A stretch of DNA of 35,592 nt from positions 1 through 35,592 of the IMG/VR virus record IMGVR_UViG_3300036985_003579. The stretch is one strand, 5' to 3'. The position numbers were made by a program, and so were the translations under genes. The DNA is from a virus. Of the stretch, positions 17,029 to 24,703 are shown piece after piece (position 1 is the stretch's first letter; each line of letters opens with the position of its first letter). The notes under the pieces were generated by a model. The model did not search any database. It was not told the origin of the DNA and saw only the letters and a list, made by a program, of their open reading frames with translations.

Positions 17029-17280
17029 ATGAAAATTGACAAGTGGATCAGGAGAGACCGGAAACGCAATAAACGATATAAATATCCCGTTGATGGCGCA
17101 GGATTGAAGGATGTTCAGCGGATACAACAGGAGCGCGCAAAACTTAAACGTAAGTCAGAGGTCGCGCCGCAATATAAGCGCCGGGAATTCCCGTATAAGT
17201 TTTGCTCAACGTCAATTTGTGCACCTGCGAGTCATCCTTGTACAGGATACCATTACAAGAATCTAAAACCGCCTTGCTGA
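17029..17280 (+). CDS. Small basic phage protein, 3' part overlaps rusA on the other strand
   Basis: An 83-residue frame. The first 45 residues (MKIDKWIRRDRKRNKRYKYP, VDGAGLKDVQRIQQERAKLK) are strongly basic and resemble short phage proteins of the type K-[FW]-x-[RK]-R-x-x-[KR]-R-x-x-x-x-VDG-x-x-x-x-x-x-Q-x-x-x-x-RAK. The remaining residues lie antisense to the end of rusA and show no such pattern, so only the 5' part is convincing. It ends the late + strand operon, which converges on the early - strand operon without a clear terminator between them. Confidence 0.4.
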   Translation: MKIDKWIRRDRKRNKRYKYPVDGAGLKDVQRIQQERAKLKRKSEVAPQYKRREFPYKFCSTSICAPASHPCTGYHYKNLKPPC

Positions 17281-17515
17281 GATTGTCTAGATCCTTTTTC
17301 CGTTTATCCGGCAGTATGAACAAAATATCCATGTCGACATGCTCGGTGATCATCTCGTAATTAGCCAGCCGCATCGCTTCGGCACATTCCCAGGCAACGA
17401 CTTCCTGCCACGCCTTGACTGCGGGGTCTGTGTGGCCGTGGCCGTTACCGTCATAGATAAACGACTGCTTTGATATTGGCGTTCCTTCAACGCTAAATGA
17501 TATGCCGTAGGTCAT
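17144..17515 (-). CDS. rusA: RusA-type Holliday junction resolvase
   Basis: A 123-residue protein. The N-terminal strand ISFSVEGTPISKQSF is followed by a helix, and the active site is PDKRKKDLDNLSKAVLDSCN, with D70, D75 and D77 plus KDDSQV (D94, D95). These acidic residues coordinate Mg2+ in RusA enzymes, which cut four-way junctions as dimers. In phages the enzyme resolves branched replication and recombination intermediates before packaging. It is coupled to the HNH gene upstream by a 4-base overlap (17512-17515) and is the last gene of the early operon. Confidence 0.9.
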   Translation of the reverse strand: MTYGISFSVEGTPISKQSFIYDGNGHGHTDPAVKAWQEVVAWECAEAMRLANYEMITEHVDMDILFILPDKRKKDLDNLSKAVLDSCNGILYKDDSQVHKLTLSKTYTGIPGAYIAARPLTYV

Positions 17516-17793
17516 AATTGCCTCAACTTATCTCTTGCAGTCATCATAAATGGATGCCTTGCCTTGTGGCAATCCACACATAAAACTTTCAAATTAGAAG
17601 GATGATTGGTACCACCTTCTGATAGTTCAAGTGCATGATGGATGTGGCACTTGTGCAGTTCCACAACATCGAAGCAGTAGCCACAAATGCCCTCGTCTCT
17701 CACATAAACGTATTGCCTTATCTCGCGCCATTCGCGAATTGGCATTCTGCTGTACCAAGGATAAAGTTTTCCGTTTATTTCAAAAGTATCCAT
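17512..17793 (-). CDS. HNH endonuclease, small
   Basis: A 93-residue protein with a complete HNH/zinc arrangement: RDEGICGYCFDVVELHKCHI (C37, C40), HIHHALELSEGGTNHPSN (H52-H53 and the GG-x-N turn) and LKVLCVDCHKARH (C72, C75, H76). It follows a repeat-rich non-coding leader and is translationally coupled to rusA. Free-standing HNH enzymes in such positions either act in DNA packaging/recombination or are homing nucleases; gene order next to rusA favours a role in DNA processing, but neither can be excluded. Confidence 0.85.
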   Translation of the reverse strand: MDTFEINGKLYPWYSRMPIREWREIRQYVYVRDEGICGYCFDVVELHKCHIHHALELSEGGTNHPSNLKVLCVDCHKARHPFMMTARDKLRQL

Positions 17794-18077
17794 GCCTTAC
17801 CTCGCCGTACCGGAACCAGCCACGCCAAACACGCCAAACATTACCTTGCTCCAGACCGCCACACCACGCCTATTCCTCAAAGCCGTTCCCTTGCCTTGCC
17901 TTGCCTCGCCGCGCCTTGCCTTGCCTTGCCGCGCCTTGCCCCTCCCATCAACGCCGTCACCTCACCTGACATGCCCACACCATTACCATAAAAACAGAAC
18001 CTTGCCTAAACAAACCTTGCCTAAACAAACCTTGCCTGGCATAACCCAGCCGTGCCATTCCGAACCCTTGCCACAAA
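17794..18077 (-). repeat. Low-complexity GGCAAGG-type repeat leader (non-coding)
   Basis: This gap lies between two - strand genes and has no convincing gene on either strand. On the - strand it is built from GGCAAGG/GGCAC/GGCGCGG pieces: a dense block of 5-bp units at 17885-17942, and two and a half copies of a 15-bp unit (CTTGCCTAAACAAAC on the + strand) at 18001-18037. The repeats run up to the ribosome site and ATG of the HNH gene (GGTAAGGCATGG). Strand slippage during replication would explain their growth; whether they have a function is open. Confidence 0.75.
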
Positions 18078-18656
18078 TTATTTCACCAATTCAAACTTGG
18101 TGACCATGAACCTGCCAAACTTCGGTCGGTAATCGCCAATGCCGACAGCCTTACCCGCAAGCGTTAGAACATCGTTCACCGTCTCGAAGTTTACCTCATC
18201 GTCAATGACGTTAATTAGGAACGATAATTCCCATCCAGGCTTGAATGTTGGGCGAACACGGACAACGCGCGCTCTCATTACAACAACTGGACGTAAATCA
18301 AGATACAACTTCTTATCGGCATCCGCATCAAGTTCTTCTGGAACTTCAACGCCGTGTAATATCTCAACCGGATCAATAAACACGTTTGCAGAAAACAAAT
18401 CTTTGTATGACTTTCCGCGCTTTCCGGTGACCTTGAAGGAAACAGCAGACTTCACCATCGCGCCTTCAATGTGACTTGAAGGTTGATATACCTGACCGGA
18501 TGCCGTTGTATAAAGATAGTCGCGCCATTCCTGGCTGTAATCCTTCGCTCCGGTAGACTTTTTGTTACCCTTCGACATCGTTGCTAAATCGGGTAACGGA
18601 AATCTGTGTTGCATAAGTGGTGCTACGCCTTTTATCGTGCAGTCTATTTGATACAT
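18078..18656 (-). CDS. Unknown early phage protein (LMQHRFP ... GDYRPKFGRF)
   Basis: The start is set at ATG 18656, which has the ribosome site TAAGGAG 8 bases upstream; an in-frame ATG at 18707 lies inside the structured leader. The product has 192 residues. It opens with MYQIDCTIKGVAPLMQHRFP, has a middle TASGQVYQPSSHIEGAMVK, and ends with GKAVGIGDYRPKFGRFMVTK. Alternating strands and helices with G-x-[RK]-P and FGRF near the C-terminus recall RRM/RAMP-like folds, but I cannot assign a family. It has its own promoter and a three-helix crossing leader (18684-18786), so its expression is probably controlled separately from the small genes upstream. The context (HNH, rusA) suggests DNA or RNA binding. 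Confidence 0.7.
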   Translation of the reverse strand: MYQIDCTIKGVAPLMQHRFPLPDLATMSKGNKKSTGAKDYSQEWRDYLYTTASGQVYQPSSHIEGAMVKSAVSFKVTGKRGKSYKDLFSANVFIDPVEILHGVEVPEELDADADKKLYLDLRPVVVMRARVVRVRPTFKPGWELSFLINVIDDEVNFETVNDVLTLAGKAVGIGDYRPKFGRFMVTKFELVK

Positions 18657-18683
18657 TGGACTACTCCTTATCGCTATAACAAA

Positions 18684-18786
18684 AGTCCGTTGTCCTGCCT
18701 TCGCCAACTTTGTTCAAGAAGTGGGAGGTTAGCAGAACAACGGACTCTTATTGGCGAATAAAAAAACCACCCGAACTTCTTGAACA
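18684..18786 (-). ncRNA. Structured 5' leader, element 1: three crossing helices
   Basis: On + coordinates six arms occur in the order A 18684-18698, B 18700-18708, C 18711-18722, A' 18732-18746, B' 18750-18758, C' 18775-18786. A pairs with A' (15 bp), B with B' (9 bp) and C with C' (12 bp). The only non-complementary positions in A and B are C/A on the + strand, which become G-U pairs in - strand RNA. C' starts at the predicted transcription start and A ends 28 bases before the ATG at 18656. The crossing order cannot be a set of ordinary nested hairpins. It could be a pseudoknotted fold or a switch between alternative hairpins. Confidence 0.6.
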
Positions 18787-20286: not shown

Positions 20287-21530
20287 TTCGCCTCCACGCA
20301 ATAAAATCGTTGTTGCGGTTGATTAAACATTACTTTCACGCTCCCGACTTGCCCATCCCTATATTTCGCAATCAACAATTCCGTTGGCGATATGGTCAGC
20401 GCGTTCCCGTTGTAATAATCCTCGCGATATAAAAATACTACCTGGTCAGCGTTCTGTTCTAACTCTCCGCTATCCCTCAGATCTGATAGCGTCGGTCGTT
20501 TGTTGTCGCCGCGATGCTCAACTCCTCTATTCAACTGCTGCGCAAACATAACGCAACAGTTAAATTCTTTCGCAATCTGTTTTCCGCCCCAACTGATGGC
20601 GCCTAATCGCCTTATTTCGTTATCGCCTTTATCGGATAGCAGCGATAAGTGATCAATAATCACAATGTCGGCCTTCGTCTGCGCTGTCATTTTCCACACA
20701 TCATCCATGGTCTGCCGGCTGTTATCGTCAACGATCAACTTGTTATCCAACGCATCAATTAACCGGACATTCTCTTTCTCCAGGCGCTGCATCTCTAGCG
20801 GATTGAGCTCTCCTTTCCGCACCTTCTGCCAGGTGAGGCCAGCATACCCGCAGCAAATACGCGCCCATAGCTGACGCCGTGACATTTCCAGGCTGATGAC
20901 CAACACCTTCCTGCCGTTTCGCGCATTGTGTTCCGCAATGTTGGCCAGGATCGCGGATTTACCCATACCAGGGCGGGCGGCCACCAGTGTCATTGTGCCC
21001 CGTTCTAATCCACCGGTCCGCATGTCAAAGTCGCTTATTCCGGTATAAATGGTGTCAATCTTGCCGTTCCAAATTGAGTCATAAAATTCCAATCCTATCT
21101 CGGCCGCATTTAGCGCAGTATTGTGCCCGGTGGTGCGCTCGTTCAACTCGGCCATTGTTTTTGTCAGCAGCACATTGTCACGGTCCATAACAGCGCGCGC
21201 CAGGTTGGGCAGTTTGATTGCGTAATTCATGTACCTATCATCCTCAGCTATCTGGTTAGCGTATGAGGTATATTCCATACTGCTTATTATTTGCGCCTGG
21301 GCATCTATCAATTCACTGTAAACTTCCGCCGTAATCGCCGCCTCGGTTGGCTGCTTGCCGTCAATAACAAGTTGCCAGAACTGCCGGTAATGTTCATCGT
21401 GGAATTGCTCAGGTCGCAGCCAACCGCAATCGTGTATCACGGTTTCAGGAGCCTGGATGAATAAGCACGCGCAGAATAACTTTTCTACCGCGCGCTTGTG
21501 GACCATCGTTGTCTGAATTAGGTCTGTCAT
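20283..21530 (-). CDS. Replicative DNA helicase, DnaB family
   Basis: A 415-residue hexameric-type helicase. The N-terminal helical domain (AVEKLFCACLFIQAPETVI ... PEQFHDEHYRQFWQLV) matches DnaB-N. The C-terminal RecA-like domain has Walker A AARPGMGKS (184-192), VLVISLEMSRRQL, Walker B IVIIDHLSLL, and the later DLRDSGELEQNADQVVFLYR and KYRDGQVG motifs. It unwinds the fork 5' to 3'. It is coupled to the initiator gene by ATGA (21527-21530), an O-P-like arrangement, which suggests loading at the iterons inside that gene. No primase domain is fused, and no polymerase is seen, so host enzymes are probably recruited. Confidence 0.93.
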   Translation of the reverse strand: MTDLIQTTMVHKRAVEKLFCACLFIQAPETVIHDCGWLRPEQFHDEHYRQFWQLVIDGKQPTEAAITAEVYSELIDAQAQIISSMEYTSYANQIAEDDRYMNYAIKLPNLARAVMDRDNVLLTKTMAELNERTTGHNTALNAAEIGLEFYDSIWNGKIDTIYTGISDFDMRTGGLERGTMTLVAARPGMGKSAILANIAEHNARNGRKVLVISLEMSRRQLWARICCGYAGLTWQKVRKGELNPLEMQRLEKENVRLIDALDNKLIVDDNSRQTMDDVWKMTAQTKADIVIIDHLSLLSDKGDNEIRRLGAISWGGKQIAKEFNCCVMFAQQLNRGVEHRGDNKRPTLSDLRDSGELEQNADQVVFLYREDYYNGNALTISPTELLIAKYRDGQVGSVKVMFNQPQQRFYCVEAK

Positions 21531-22228
21531 AATATCTTTAACTCCGGGTAGATTGTTTCGCGTTTTGGCTTGTAATAATTAGTTTGTGTTCGTTTAGCAA
21601 CATTGAATTTAACCGACTTCAATATTTGAGATGCTCCGTATGCTGCTTTTTGATTATCCTTGTAAAAAGATAACGCAGCGATTATGTCATCCTTGATAAC
21701 GCCTAATTTCACAAATTCATCAATTGCTATCATATCCTTAGATGTTGATGGATACCCTATCATAGTTTCAACAAGGTCAATCATTTTCTCAAATTCAGGA
21801 TTTTCCTTATTATTATTATCTTCGGTTAACTGATGGTTAATTGATGGATATGGTGCACTGGGGTTCACTAGGGTAGTGCACTGGGGTTCACTAGGTAGTG
21901 AACCAGGGTTCACTACCCCCTCCGCCACAGGTAGTGCACTGGGGTTCACTACCCCCATATATGGCGTTAATACCTGGTACATGTTACTTGTTGGATCACC
22001 GCGTTTATCCCACCGTTTTTCTCTGGTTATATTACCTGAACACTCAAGTTTTTCTAATAGGTTGATGATGTATCGTTTTCCTAATCTAGTTTTTCTTGAC
22101 AGTGTATCAATACTTGGCCAACAATGCCCCGTATCATTTGCGCTGTCCGCCAGTGCAAGGAGCAATAATAATTCAGATCCCTTTTGGTCTCCGTTTTCCC
22201 ACACCCACGACATAAGTTTAATACTCAT
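21527..22228 (-). CDS. Replication initiator protein (HTH_36-type, lambda O-like)
   Basis: A 233-residue protein, ATG 22228 with ribosome site GGAGG. Residues 1-85 form a winged helix-turn-helix of the HTH_36 type: SWVWENGDQKGSELLLLLAL, ADSANDTGHCWPSIDTLSRK, GKRYIINLLEKLE. Residues about 95-135 are a Pro/Asn/Ser-rich linker, VVNPSALP...VVNPGSLPSE...LVNPSAPYP, encoded by the iterons. The C-terminal domain (IDLVETMIGYPSTSKDMIAI ... ALSFYKDNQKAAYGASQILK) is DnaD/helicase-loader-like in layout. It should bind the repeats in its own gene and bring in the DnaB helicase encoded next. Confidence 0.82.
   Translation of the reverse strand: MSIKLMSWVWENGDQKGSELLLLLALADSANDTGHCWPSIDTLSRKTRLGKRYIINLLEKLECSGNITREKRWDKRGDPTSNMYQVLTPYMGVVNPSALPVAEGVVNPGSLPSEPQCTTLVNPSAPYPSINHQLTEDNNNKENPEFEKMIDLVETMIGYPSTSKDMIAIDEFVKLGVIKDDIIAALSFYKDNQKAAYGASQILKSVKFNVAKRTQTNYYKPKRETIYPELKIL
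21853..21951. repeat. Four iterons: probable replication origin inside the initiator gene
   Basis: The 18-base unit GTGCACTGGGGTTCACTA occurs at 21853-21870, 21876-21893 and 21934-21951, and a variant (GTGAACCAGGGTTCACTA) at 21898-21915. Steps are 23, 22 and 36 bases, so three units lie about two helical turns apart. Each unit is a near palindrome; the variant has perfect 7-base arms. An AT-rich stretch (about 21800-21850) lies beside them and could be the unwinding element. The layout matches lambda ori within gene O. Confidence 0.8.
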
Positions 22229-22249
22229 ACTTACCTCCGTTAATTAGAA

Positions 22250-22310
22250 CTCCCCTTCCAGTGAGTGAGCACCGAAAGGGGAAATTCGATTTGTCAGGCC
22301 GATCTCACTA
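22250..22310 (-). ncRNA. Structured 5' leader, element 3: two crossing helices
   Basis: Arm A 22250-22259 pairs with A' 22274-22283 (10 bp). Arm C 22259-22265 can pair with C' 22304-22310 (7 bp; the base at 22259 is shared between the two). As in the other two leaders, C/A positions on the + strand become G-U pairs in - strand RNA, and A ends 22 bases before the ATG at 22228. No B helix is found, so this is a shorter, H-type pseudoknot-like version and the least certain of the three. Confidence 0.4.
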
Positions 22311-22321
22311 TCAGCATAATC

Positions 22322-22330
22322 ATTATAACA
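22322..22330 (-). promoter_or_regulatory. Extended -10 promoter for the initiator/helicase operon
   Basis: TGTTATAAT on the - strand (extended -10). No good -35 box is found 16-18 bases upstream, where the T-tract of a terminator lies. It would start transcripts at about 22315 and drive the initiator, helicase and small genes down to 18842. Confidence 0.55.
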
Positions 22331-22351
22331 TACATTTTGCCTCCGGTAATA

Positions 22352-22394
22352 AAACACCCCTTAAGCGTGTGGTGGCACGCCTAAGGGGATGTTT
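22352..22394 (-). terminator. Rho-independent terminator after the ParB/three-Cys gene
   Basis: Arms 22357-22369 and 22376-22388 form a 13-bp stem (one G-U in - strand RNA), extended by A-T pairs outside a one-base bulge, with a 6-base loop. On the - strand it is followed by TTTTATT. It lies 36 bases after the stop of the 22430-23653 gene and just before the next promoter. Confidence 0.85.
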
Positions 22395-22429
22395 ATATGA
22401 TAATACAAATCCACCAATTTGTAGGGACA

Positions 22430-23653
22430 TTATAATGCAATTGGATATTCTCGCAAAGGCCGGCAATTAGGTTTCCAATAGACCTTACACCCTCCATCAT
22501 GGGCTGCGTCCGTCAAACTCTTGACCCATTTATATTCTGGCTGCTTCTCCGGTTCTTGTGTACTCTTGCTTTGCGCGCCAATAATAACCCAATCAAGAAT
22601 TGAATAATCGCTAAACGTTATTTGTTCTAACATTGGTTCACAGGAAACAAACCGGACGCTGGCACTCACTTGACGCATCGCGTCTTCAGTAGGAGTTACC
22701 CTCACCTGCCTATCAACTGATGCGCCCACCCATGCGTTATTAGGAAACTGAATGCTTGTTAATCTACGCGGGTTCTTCGTCAGGAATATAAATATCCATT
22801 GCGGATTAGATTCAACGACTTTCATAACTTTACTAATCCACTCATTAGGAACCCATTCGCCAAACAGGTCTGCCATACTGCAAACAAACACTTTATTGCC
22901 TCCAGGTGAGTGCGGATCTGGATTGGTGTTCTTTGGTGCGGATAGTCTGTCTTCGTTGAACGTTGGATCAAACCCGTTAGGATTGAACCTATTTGCAATG
23001 TCCCGGGCGTAGCAATAAGTACACCCATAATTGCATCCGGTTACCGGATTCCATGACCAGTTTGCCCATTCTATATTGTCATTAGTGCGGTTGAATTGTG
23101 AAGTAGACTCGCGAGGAGGATACTCTATTTTCTTTTCTGGCTTCCCAATATTCGCCGTTTGCATCTCGTAGACTGTTCCGTTGCGCTCAACTAGTTTTGG
23201 TTCAGATTCGTATCTTGGAGAATTCCAAGATACATTGTTGCGCAATTCATCTACTAAATGATTGCTCACCTTGCACCTTCTGGCAATCTCGCTGTCACTC
23301 CATTTATTCCATTCTGGATCATTCAGCGCCCTCTCAACGGATCGTCTTTTGTCATAATTAGAGCGTCTCATTCCATGGTCATTGTTCGCTCCAAGAGAAT
23401 ACAGGATTGCGTCTCTTAGCCCGCCATTGCGAACATCAGCGTCAATCTCTTGCCTCTTTGCAACTTTAGCGGCATTTACTCTGTGCCACCCATCGGCCAG
23501 GTAATATGCGTTGTTTTCGCGGAACACTATCACAGGTGGGAACACCGCATTGGCTACCATGTCATTCGCATATTCTTGAATGATGTTTGAATCAAGAACG
23601 GTTCTGGGCTGCGCTTGTGGATCCATCGTTATGTTATTAATTTGTATTTTCAA
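22430..23653 (-). CDS. ParB-like domain fused to three-Cys radical-SAM-type protein (Gp37/Gp68, DUF5131)
   Basis: A 407-residue two-domain protein. Residues 1-145 are ParB/Srx-like: ITMDPQAQPRTVLDSNIIQE, FPPVIVFRENNAYYLADGWH with the DGWHR motif (54-58), and a helix-turn-helix-like SDSEIARRCKVSNHLVDELR. Residues about 190-407 are the phage Gp37/Gp68 (DUF5131) domain: WSWNPVTGCNYGCTYCYARD with a CX3CX2C cluster at C207, C211 and C214, then VFVCSMADLFGEWVPNEWI, FLTKNPRRL, VSCEPMLEQI and WVIIGAQS. The cluster is the one that binds a 4Fe-4S centre in radical-SAM enzymes. It is coupled by ATGA to tcmP (23650-23653), the usual partner. Substrate and reaction are unknown. Confidence 0.85.
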   Translation of the reverse strand: MKIQINNITMDPQAQPRTVLDSNIIQEYANDMVANAVFPPVIVFRENNAYYLADGWHRVNAAKVAKRQEIDADVRNGGLRDAILYSLGANNDHGMRRSNYDKRRSVERALNDPEWNKWSDSEIARRCKVSNHLVDELRNNVSWNSPRYESEPKLVERNGTVYEMQTANIGKPEKKIEYPPRESTSQFNRTNDNIEWANWSWNPVTGCNYGCTYCYARDIANRFNPNGFDPTFNEDRLSAPKNTNPDPHSPGGNKVFVCSMADLFGEWVPNEWISKVMKVVESNPQWIFIFLTKNPRRLTSIQFPNNAWVGASVDRQVRVTPTEDAMRQVSASVRFVSCEPMLEQITFSDYSILDWVIIGAQSKSTQEPEKQPEYKWVKSLTDAAHDGGCKVYWKPNCRPLREYPIAL

Positions 23654-24543
23654 TTCTCAACTCCATGTAAAACACAATGACATTCATGACAAATTGCGAT
23701 TACCTTCTCTGGATAATAAGATAAGTGGTGGCACTCGGACACTTTTTCTGTTCCGCACTTCTCGCATATGCCATTGCTCCTTTCAATAGCGATTTCTTTT
23801 AGCGAAGACACAAATAAATTCGGTTGATCCATGTTTGTGCGTTCCTTTTCTGTGTACGCAATTGTTCTGAATATTTCTTTTCCTTCGTTAGATTGTAGGT
23901 TATACATATTCAGCTTTTTCCATGTTGGATATTCTGTATAATTAGTCGCAAATAAAAAAGTCCATTGCCATTTGCCTTCTGGTCTTTGCACGAGCCAATT
24001 GCTTTTATCAATTCTATGAATAAAGTCTTGTAACGAGTTTCCGTTGCGCTTAATAGCCGTAGCGGGACAGCGTATTAATATGTCCATTTTAGGCAAATGT
24101 TTTGATGCGTTAGACAGCATATCAAAATTTGGAATACCGTTTGGGTCTGCATAAATTAGACCATATGAATACCTAGGAATACTTTTTATTATTTGTGGCA
24201 ATATTATCGCATTGTCTCCGGTATAAACGGTATGAGAATTGGCAAACTGTACCGCCGCTTTCAGGTATATTGTGTTGCCTGGTTCTATCTCAATAAATGA
24301 CGCAGAATATTTCATTTTATCTTGTATCTCTTGTAAGAATATTACAGGGGATCCCGGACAACCCTCCATGACATTGCTGCCGTCGCCGGCATACAGATCA
24401 ATATAATAAAATATTTGGGGTGCCCACTTATGCTTCGTTATAACTGACTTAACAATTGAAATTTGGGTATCAATTACGCACTTGAACCCAGCTTGTTTGT
24501 TCACCGTGCAAGTACTGTGGCCGATATTATTGTCTTTTGGCAT
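23650..24543 (-). CDS. tcmP: TcmP-like three-Cys-motif partner protein with C-terminal HNH-like zinc domain
   Basis: A 297-residue protein. Residues 15-245 resemble TcmP: KCVIDTQISIVKSVITKHKW, then YYIDLYAGDGSN (47-57, like motif I of SAM-dependent methyltransferases), SFIEIEPGN, VYTGDNA and LIYADPNGIPNF (129-140, a DPxG-like catalytic site). TcmP is named for its constant pairing with three-Cys radical-SAM proteins, which is exactly the neighbour here. Residues 255-297 add a zinc/HNH-like module: C260, C263, ECHHL (H272, H273) and ICHECH (C285, C288). It is the first gene after promoter 24675, with a structured leader. Confidence 0.78.
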   Translation of the reverse strand: MPKDNNIGHSTCTVNKQAGFKCVIDTQISIVKSVITKHKWAPQIFYYIDLYAGDGSNVMEGCPGSPVIFLQEIQDKMKYSASFIEIEPGNTIYLKAAVQFANSHTVYTGDNAIILPQIIKSIPRYSYGLIYADPNGIPNFDMLSNASKHLPKMDILIRCPATAIKRNGNSLQDFIHRIDKSNWLVQRPEGKWQWTFLFATNYTEYPTWKKLNMYNLQSNEGKEIFRTIAYTEKERTNMDQPNLFVSSLKEIAIERSNGICEKCGTEKVSECHHLSYYPEKVIAICHECHCVLHGVEN

Positions 24544-24564
24544 CCGTCCTCCTGGTAAAACAAA

Positions 24565-24667
24565 ACCCCGCCAACTTGCATTTTGCCTTACGTGTTCAGC
24601 GATCGGCAGTTCTATGCAAATTGACGGGGTGTTGTGGGCAAATTAAAAACTGCCTCGATCACTGAAC
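24565..24667 (-). ncRNA. Structured 5' leader, element 2: three crossing helices
   Basis: Arms on + coordinates: A 24565-24580, B 24582-24587, C 24594-24610, A' 24615-24630, B' 24637-24642, C' 24649-24667. A/A' gives 16 bp with two G-U pairs in - strand RNA (C/A on the + strand), B/B' 6 bp, C/C' 17 bp with one G-U pair and a two-base bulge. The order A-B-C-A'-B'-C' is the same as in element 1, but the sequences are unrelated. C' starts at the predicted transcription start, and A ends 22 bases before the tcmP ATG. Confidence 0.6.
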
Positions 24668-24674
24668 TACCTAT

Positions 24675-24703
24675 ATTATAACATCATATCTGCACATAAT
24701 CAA
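24675..24703 (-). promoter_or_regulatory. Promoter for the tcmP/three-Cys operon
   Basis: On the - strand: TTGATT (-35, 24698-24703), 17-base spacer, TATAAT (-10, 24675-24680) preceded by TGT (extended -10). It overlaps the end of the gene at 24684-24884. Confidence 0.7.

Follow-up and report, generated by a model that had tools for sequence, protein, structure and literature searches.

A structured leader RNA with three crossing helices and a terminator-like end upstream of two phage genes

Described leader RNAs and the tcmP leader

In classical attenuators, an early helix overlaps the arms of the terminator in sequence. Complementarity within one phage transcript is also known from the C4 antisense RNA of P1 and P7 and from the CI RNA of P4, in which upstream segments are complementary to downstream ones. 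HK022 carries two similar put RNAs (putL and putR) downstream of early promoters, which are antiterminators of ~70 nt each and fold into two stem-loops (PMC9378689). In T4, gp32 binds a pseudoknot located 67 nt upstream of its own start codon (PMC3014915). For pseudoknots of the ABCABC (pseudotrefoil) class, 51 RNAs averaging 74 nt have been listed (PMC3390330).

Here, we focus on a leader termed element 2 (E2) in a virus record of 35,592 bases, called the window below. E2 and its promoter are read on the minus strand. The promoter (24675-24703) consists of the -35 hexamer TTGATT (24703-24698), a 17-nt spacer and the extended -10 element TG.TATAAT (24680-24675), in agreement with an earlier reading of the sequence alone. 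Between this promoter and the start codon of tcmP, six arms follow in the order C'-B'-A'-C-B-A. Arm C' (24648-24667) starts 7 nt downstream of the -10 element, at about +1 of the predicted transcript, and is divided by a 2-nt bulge into 24667-24657 and 24654-24648. A U-rich spacer (TTTTT, 24643-24647), present too in the related leaders E1 and L003 described below, connects C' to arm B' (TTTGCC, 24637-24642). Arm A' (24614-24635, 22 nt) forms the 5' arm of a terminator-like hairpin. Within 2 nt of A', arm C (24594-24611) begins, composed of 24611-24605 and 24604-24594, and is followed by arm B (GGCAAA, 24582-24587) and by arm A (24560-24581, 22 nt), the 3' arm of the terminator-like hairpin. 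The end of A coincides with the U-tract TTTTGTTTT (24557-24565), after which the Shine-Dalgarno site AGGAGG (24548-24553) and the ATG of tcmP (24543) follow.

The first gene behind E2, tcmP (23650-24543, minus strand), encodes a TcmP-like protein of 297 aa that matches TIGR04474 with an E value of 4e-13 and 49.8 bits, which is below the cut-off of 53. This protein has a C-terminal Cys/His-rich segment and adjoins a ParB_N-DUF5131 fusion resembling radical SAM mobile pair A (22430-24543, minus strand).

Helix C of E2 comprises 18 bp (11+7 around the 2-nt bulge), helix B 6 bp and helix A 22 bp with one mismatch. The coordinates and arm order of the sequence-only reading hold, whereas its helix lengths of 16, 6 and 17 bp are better replaced by these values, its A arm having stopped before the U-tract. 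Each of the three helices crosses the other two, which results in the ABCABC order, and the pairing of A, B and C is backed by covariation. The RNA folding z-score of E2 is -3.5. The transcribed strand reaches a pairing score of 73.9 compared to 61.8 for the complement in E2, and of 75.2 compared to 62.3 in E1. This advantage of 12-13 points is expected if RNA is what pairs, and it bears out the G-U asymmetry toward minus-strand RNA that had been noted before.

Conservation and covariation of the helices

A second copy, element 1 (E1; 18678-18786, minus strand), precedes a gene for a 192-aa phrog_4652 protein (18078-18656). The operon behind E1 (17144-18656, minus strand) encodes this protein without known function, an HNH nuclease and a RusA resolvase. 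The viral contig L003 carries a relative of the E1 gene with 85% identity, and an E1 orthologue is found directly upstream of its ATG. E1 and E2 contain the same helices at distances from the predicted transcript start that agree within about 3 nt. Counted from this start, helix C occupies positions 2-12/67-77 in E1, 4-13/67-76 in the L003 orthologue and 4-14/67-77 in E2. Helix A occupies positions 36-57/89-110 in E1 and 36-57/90-111 in both the L003 orthologue and E2. In all three leaders, a gap of 16-24 nt separates the end of the structure from the ATG, and the Shine-Dalgarno site stays free.

The arms of the two elements had been described as unrelated in sequence, which does not hold. The E1-E2 alignment score of 32 lies far above that of shuffled sequences (7.7 +/- 4.4), none of 500 shuffles scores as high, and E1 and E2 are therefore paralogues. 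Judged by their sequences, the arms of the two paralogues are diverged from one another by compensatory change. Among 45 pairs compared between E1 and E2, 20 have changed on both sides and still pair, four have changed on one side and two involve a non-pair. Hence, compensatory change within one genome is confirmed, but as E1 and E2 are paralogues, comparing them describes one family and not two independent inventions. Between E1 and L003, eight pairs show changes on both sides.

In an alignment of helices A and B made from sequence only, 97.5% of the cells are paired and nine pairs carry double changes; none of 500 shuffles matches either value, and slid registers of these helices are only 38-55% paired. 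When helix C is added, with a register that is off by one column in E2, the covariation still exceeds all shuffles. In a mechanical scan for two crossing helices, E2 and E1 are the top two minus-strand matches in the window. When 4.96 Mb of loci, counting both strands, were scanned with a filter for U-tail and geometry, four sites scored at least 60, compared to none in two dinucleotide-shuffled copies. Crossing inverted repeats do arise randomly at lower scores, and the helices might in principle reflect such chance complementarity. We regard this as practically negligible given a score unreached by any shuffled sequence, a covariation above all 500 shuffles and all slid registers, and an orthologue in another virus. 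The E1/E2-type leader is a real, evolutionarily conserved RNA structure.

A terminator-like end and the predicted order of folding

At its end, just upstream of the Shine-Dalgarno site, helix A carries a conserved U-tract, like an intrinsic terminator. The leader contains a partly GC-rich hairpin with a stem of 22 bp directly followed by this U-tract, and the U-tract scores of E1, L003 and E2 fall into the top 0.04-0.5% of positions, with E2 in the top 0.04% on its strand. The A:U pairs holding the U-tract show no double change compared to eight in the remainder of helix A, suggesting that the U's themselves matter. Both the U-tract score and the unchanged A:U pairs fit an intrinsic terminator.

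It is unlikely that the leader acts mainly after transcription, with the helix at +1 and the pseudoknot upstream of the Shine-Dalgarno site blocking 5'-end-dependent decay or tuning ribosome loading. A stabilizer of this kind would agree with a C' arm that in every case begins at the predicted first nucleotides and with a structure that stops short of the ATG and spares the Shine-Dalgarno site, but it would not account for a U-tract preserved in a helix A that is otherwise free to change. The sequence-only reading had likewise proposed control of stability or translation. This proposal keeps its place among the alternatives, but the conserved U-tract, which had been missed, points to transcription attenuation rather than to stability or translation alone. 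Helix A might also serve mainly as a site at which RNase III cuts to trim the leader, as its 22 bp correspond to about two helical turns and thereby to a suitable substrate. We consider this highly improbable because helices B and C and the U-tract would have no explanation.

Also missed before was that helix C is predicted to fold first. In folding of growing prefixes, the best structure from about nt 74-80 to 98 is C'/C, at about -25 to -29 kcal/mol, and A'/A becomes best at about nt 104 in E1, L003 and E2. The predicted sequence of events is thus that the 5' end of the leader first folds around A' and that a terminator-like hairpin with C in its loop arises later. On the transcript, C' comes first, from the predicted +1 onward, and A precedes the Shine-Dalgarno site and the ATG. 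Our tentative reading is that the phage has two paralogous copies of a leader attenuator that acts on transcription in cis, in which the 5' end of the transcript might pair into the terminator loop and thereby govern read-through. Starting from the computed features (three helices, compensatory change, location between promoter and Shine-Dalgarno site, conserved U-tract and predicted folding order), we infer that the hairpin would terminate transcription, that C'/C would oppose the hairpin and that a factor or condition would set the choice.

In such an attenuator, RNA polymerase would start at or beside C'. As the leader grows, C' would pair with C and B' with B, enclosing A' in the loop of the C'/C hairpin. 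On emerging, arm A could then join A' in a long hairpin, GC-rich in part and ending in a U-tract, i.e., an intrinsic terminator immediately upstream of the Shine-Dalgarno site. With C'/C (and B'/B) formed in time, the topology would hinder full winding of A'/A and transcription would read through into tcmP. As A' lies in the closed C'/C loop, full winding of the 22-bp A'/A helix should be hindered before RNA polymerase has released A. If C' were occupied or folded late, A'/A would form and transcription would stop.

The early helix, the later U-tract hairpin before the Shine-Dalgarno site and the predicted switch of the best fold as the RNA grows resemble attenuators with an intrinsic terminator. 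In contrast to these, the early helix of E2 contains no terminator-arm sequence but pairs the 5' end with the terminator loop, and exclusion would be topological. An early helix overlapping the terminator arms in sequence is not found in E2, where C and A abut without overlap. Since their arms do not overlap, helices C and A are not exclusive by sequence, and one pseudoknot may hold both simultaneously. A stronger form of the attenuator reading is that the phage RNA family controls transcription by topology alone, with an early 5'-end pseudoknot that locks the terminator 5' arm in a closed loop without shared sequence, and with paralogues that evolved different arms so that each leader acts only on itself. 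We consider this stronger form rather unlikely. The attenuator reading is weakened by the small number of secure members (three) and by the weak U-tract (top 2.3%) of a distant case in the contig L089. If it is correct, the element would be a conditional terminator whose antagonist has no sequence overlap with the terminator, and it would point to leader RNA modules being copied into several operons by phages and then readjusted.

Like the put RNAs of HK022, E1 and E2 are two sequence-related RNA elements of one phage that lie behind promoters and presumably act on transcription. However, the element of ~110 nt has three mutually crossing helices and its own terminator-like hairpin at the end; a put-type fold of ~70 nt with two nested stem-loops was not found. 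Since the element shows neither an overlap in sequence as in classical attenuators nor a fold of two stems as in put, we assign it to neither class. The pairing order of E1 and E2 is that of ABCABC pseudoknots, although with far longer helices, which may not all be present at the same time. The T4 gene 32 leader is similar in that its pseudoknot, too, lies in the leader of a phage mRNA and upstream of the Shine-Dalgarno site. The T4 leader, however, is a simple pseudoknot of one gene bound by that gene's own product, whereas the three-helix topology and U-tract described here precede two unrelated genes. The different gene products behind E1 and E2 argue against autoregulation of the gene 32 type.

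A phage or host protein might nevertheless read the shape of the pseudoknot and, comparable to gp32 or put, repress translation or modify RNA polymerase. For such an operator speak the shape retained by two sequence-diverged copies, the likewise two similar put RNAs downstream of early promoters in HK022 (PMC9378689) and the binding of gp32 to a leader pseudoknot (PMC3014915). We judge it quite unlikely, as the short U-rich spacer is the only conserved unpaired sequence and no candidate binding protein was identified.

The complementarity between upstream and downstream segments of one phage transcript and the terminator-like hairpin at its end would also suit a trans-acting leader RNA that is released by termination and pairs with other leader copies, similar to the C4 RNA of P1/P7 and the CI RNA of P4. 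In E1 and E2, however, the Shine-Dalgarno site is unmasked, the arms of the two copies have diverged yet still pair in cis, so that cis pairing and not sequence is conserved between copies, and the covariance model of C4 antisense RNA (RF01695) gives no match at the gathering threshold or among permissive ones. Taken together, this makes a trans-acting role very improbable.

Among the three members E1, L003 and E2, only the short U-rich spacer is conserved outside the helices. A metabolite riboswitch was rejected because there is no conserved unpaired core. A response to a ligand, as suggested by the sequence-only reading, is thus unsupported and unlikely for these leaders. A type III toxin-antitoxin system was rejected as well, since the leader has no tandem RNA repeats and the downstream genes encode TcmP-like and phrog_4652 proteins.

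Distribution of the element and further features of the window

Searches of Rfam at gathering and permissive thresholds returned nothing credible for the element. In line with the proposal of an undescribed, structured leader RNA of phages in which the crossing topology is shared, these data and the copy before the orthologous gene in L003 suggest a new phage leader family of unusual topology, with a putative mechanism proposed from the predicted structure. E1 and E2 probably belong to a small family of RNA on/off switches that has not been described before. A model search of related contigs had been proposed, and a covariance model of helix A run over 0.98 Mb of them found E1, the L003 orthologue and E2 and, weakly, the complementary strand of two of these. 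DNA similarity searches with E2 in phages and plasmids and with E1 in phages found nothing. The element is absent from other relatives of the E1 gene (L004, L005, L215), and a survey of 120 viral stretches with strong promoters yielded no new convincing case. The family therefore looks rare, or limited to a phage group poorly sampled by collections.

In addition to the three secure members, L089 is a probable member, while L183 and L211 are doubtful. In a descriptor scan, L089 (2982-3102) shows all three helices including a long helix A, with different spacing and no clear Shine-Dalgarno site. The scores of L183 (60.9) and L211 (54.3), each with helices C and A only, are near the best shuffled scores of 57.5 and 53.1. 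Both combine a -10-like hexamer with a C arm that abuts A', a U-tailed hairpin and a Shine-Dalgarno site; helix B was not found in the same order, and they remain candidates only. Among the leaders of 65 prophage genes for an L089-type replication initiator, eight matches compared to 6.75 in shuffles indicate no enrichment, which weakens L211. Families that conserve mainly the pairing order tend to escape sequence-based RNA discovery. The support here comes from two paralogues and one orthologue, extensive compensatory change and a rare three-way crossing topology.

The leader-like hairpin of L183 (10913-11025, minus strand) lies upstream of a GIY-YIG gene, and GTGGTGGTCAAA after its arm C matches the complement of TTTGTCCACCAC, located just 5' of TATAAT, at 11 of 12 positions.

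Two further leaders in the window (22427-22225, minus strand) contain plain hairpins whose complementarity to the 5' end is weak (p = 0.05 and 0.13) and were not counted. In this replication-operon leader (22225-22430, minus strand), two plain terminator-like hairpins are each located directly upstream of a Shine-Dalgarno site (CCGGAGG and CGGAGG), and a possible ORF of 13 codons lies between them. The replication-initiator gene (21527-22228, minus strand) contains four copies of the imperfect palindrome TAGTGCACTGGGGTTCACTA at 21848-21956. The lambda O gene contains origin iterons, and by analogy the four palindromes are probably origin iterons as well.
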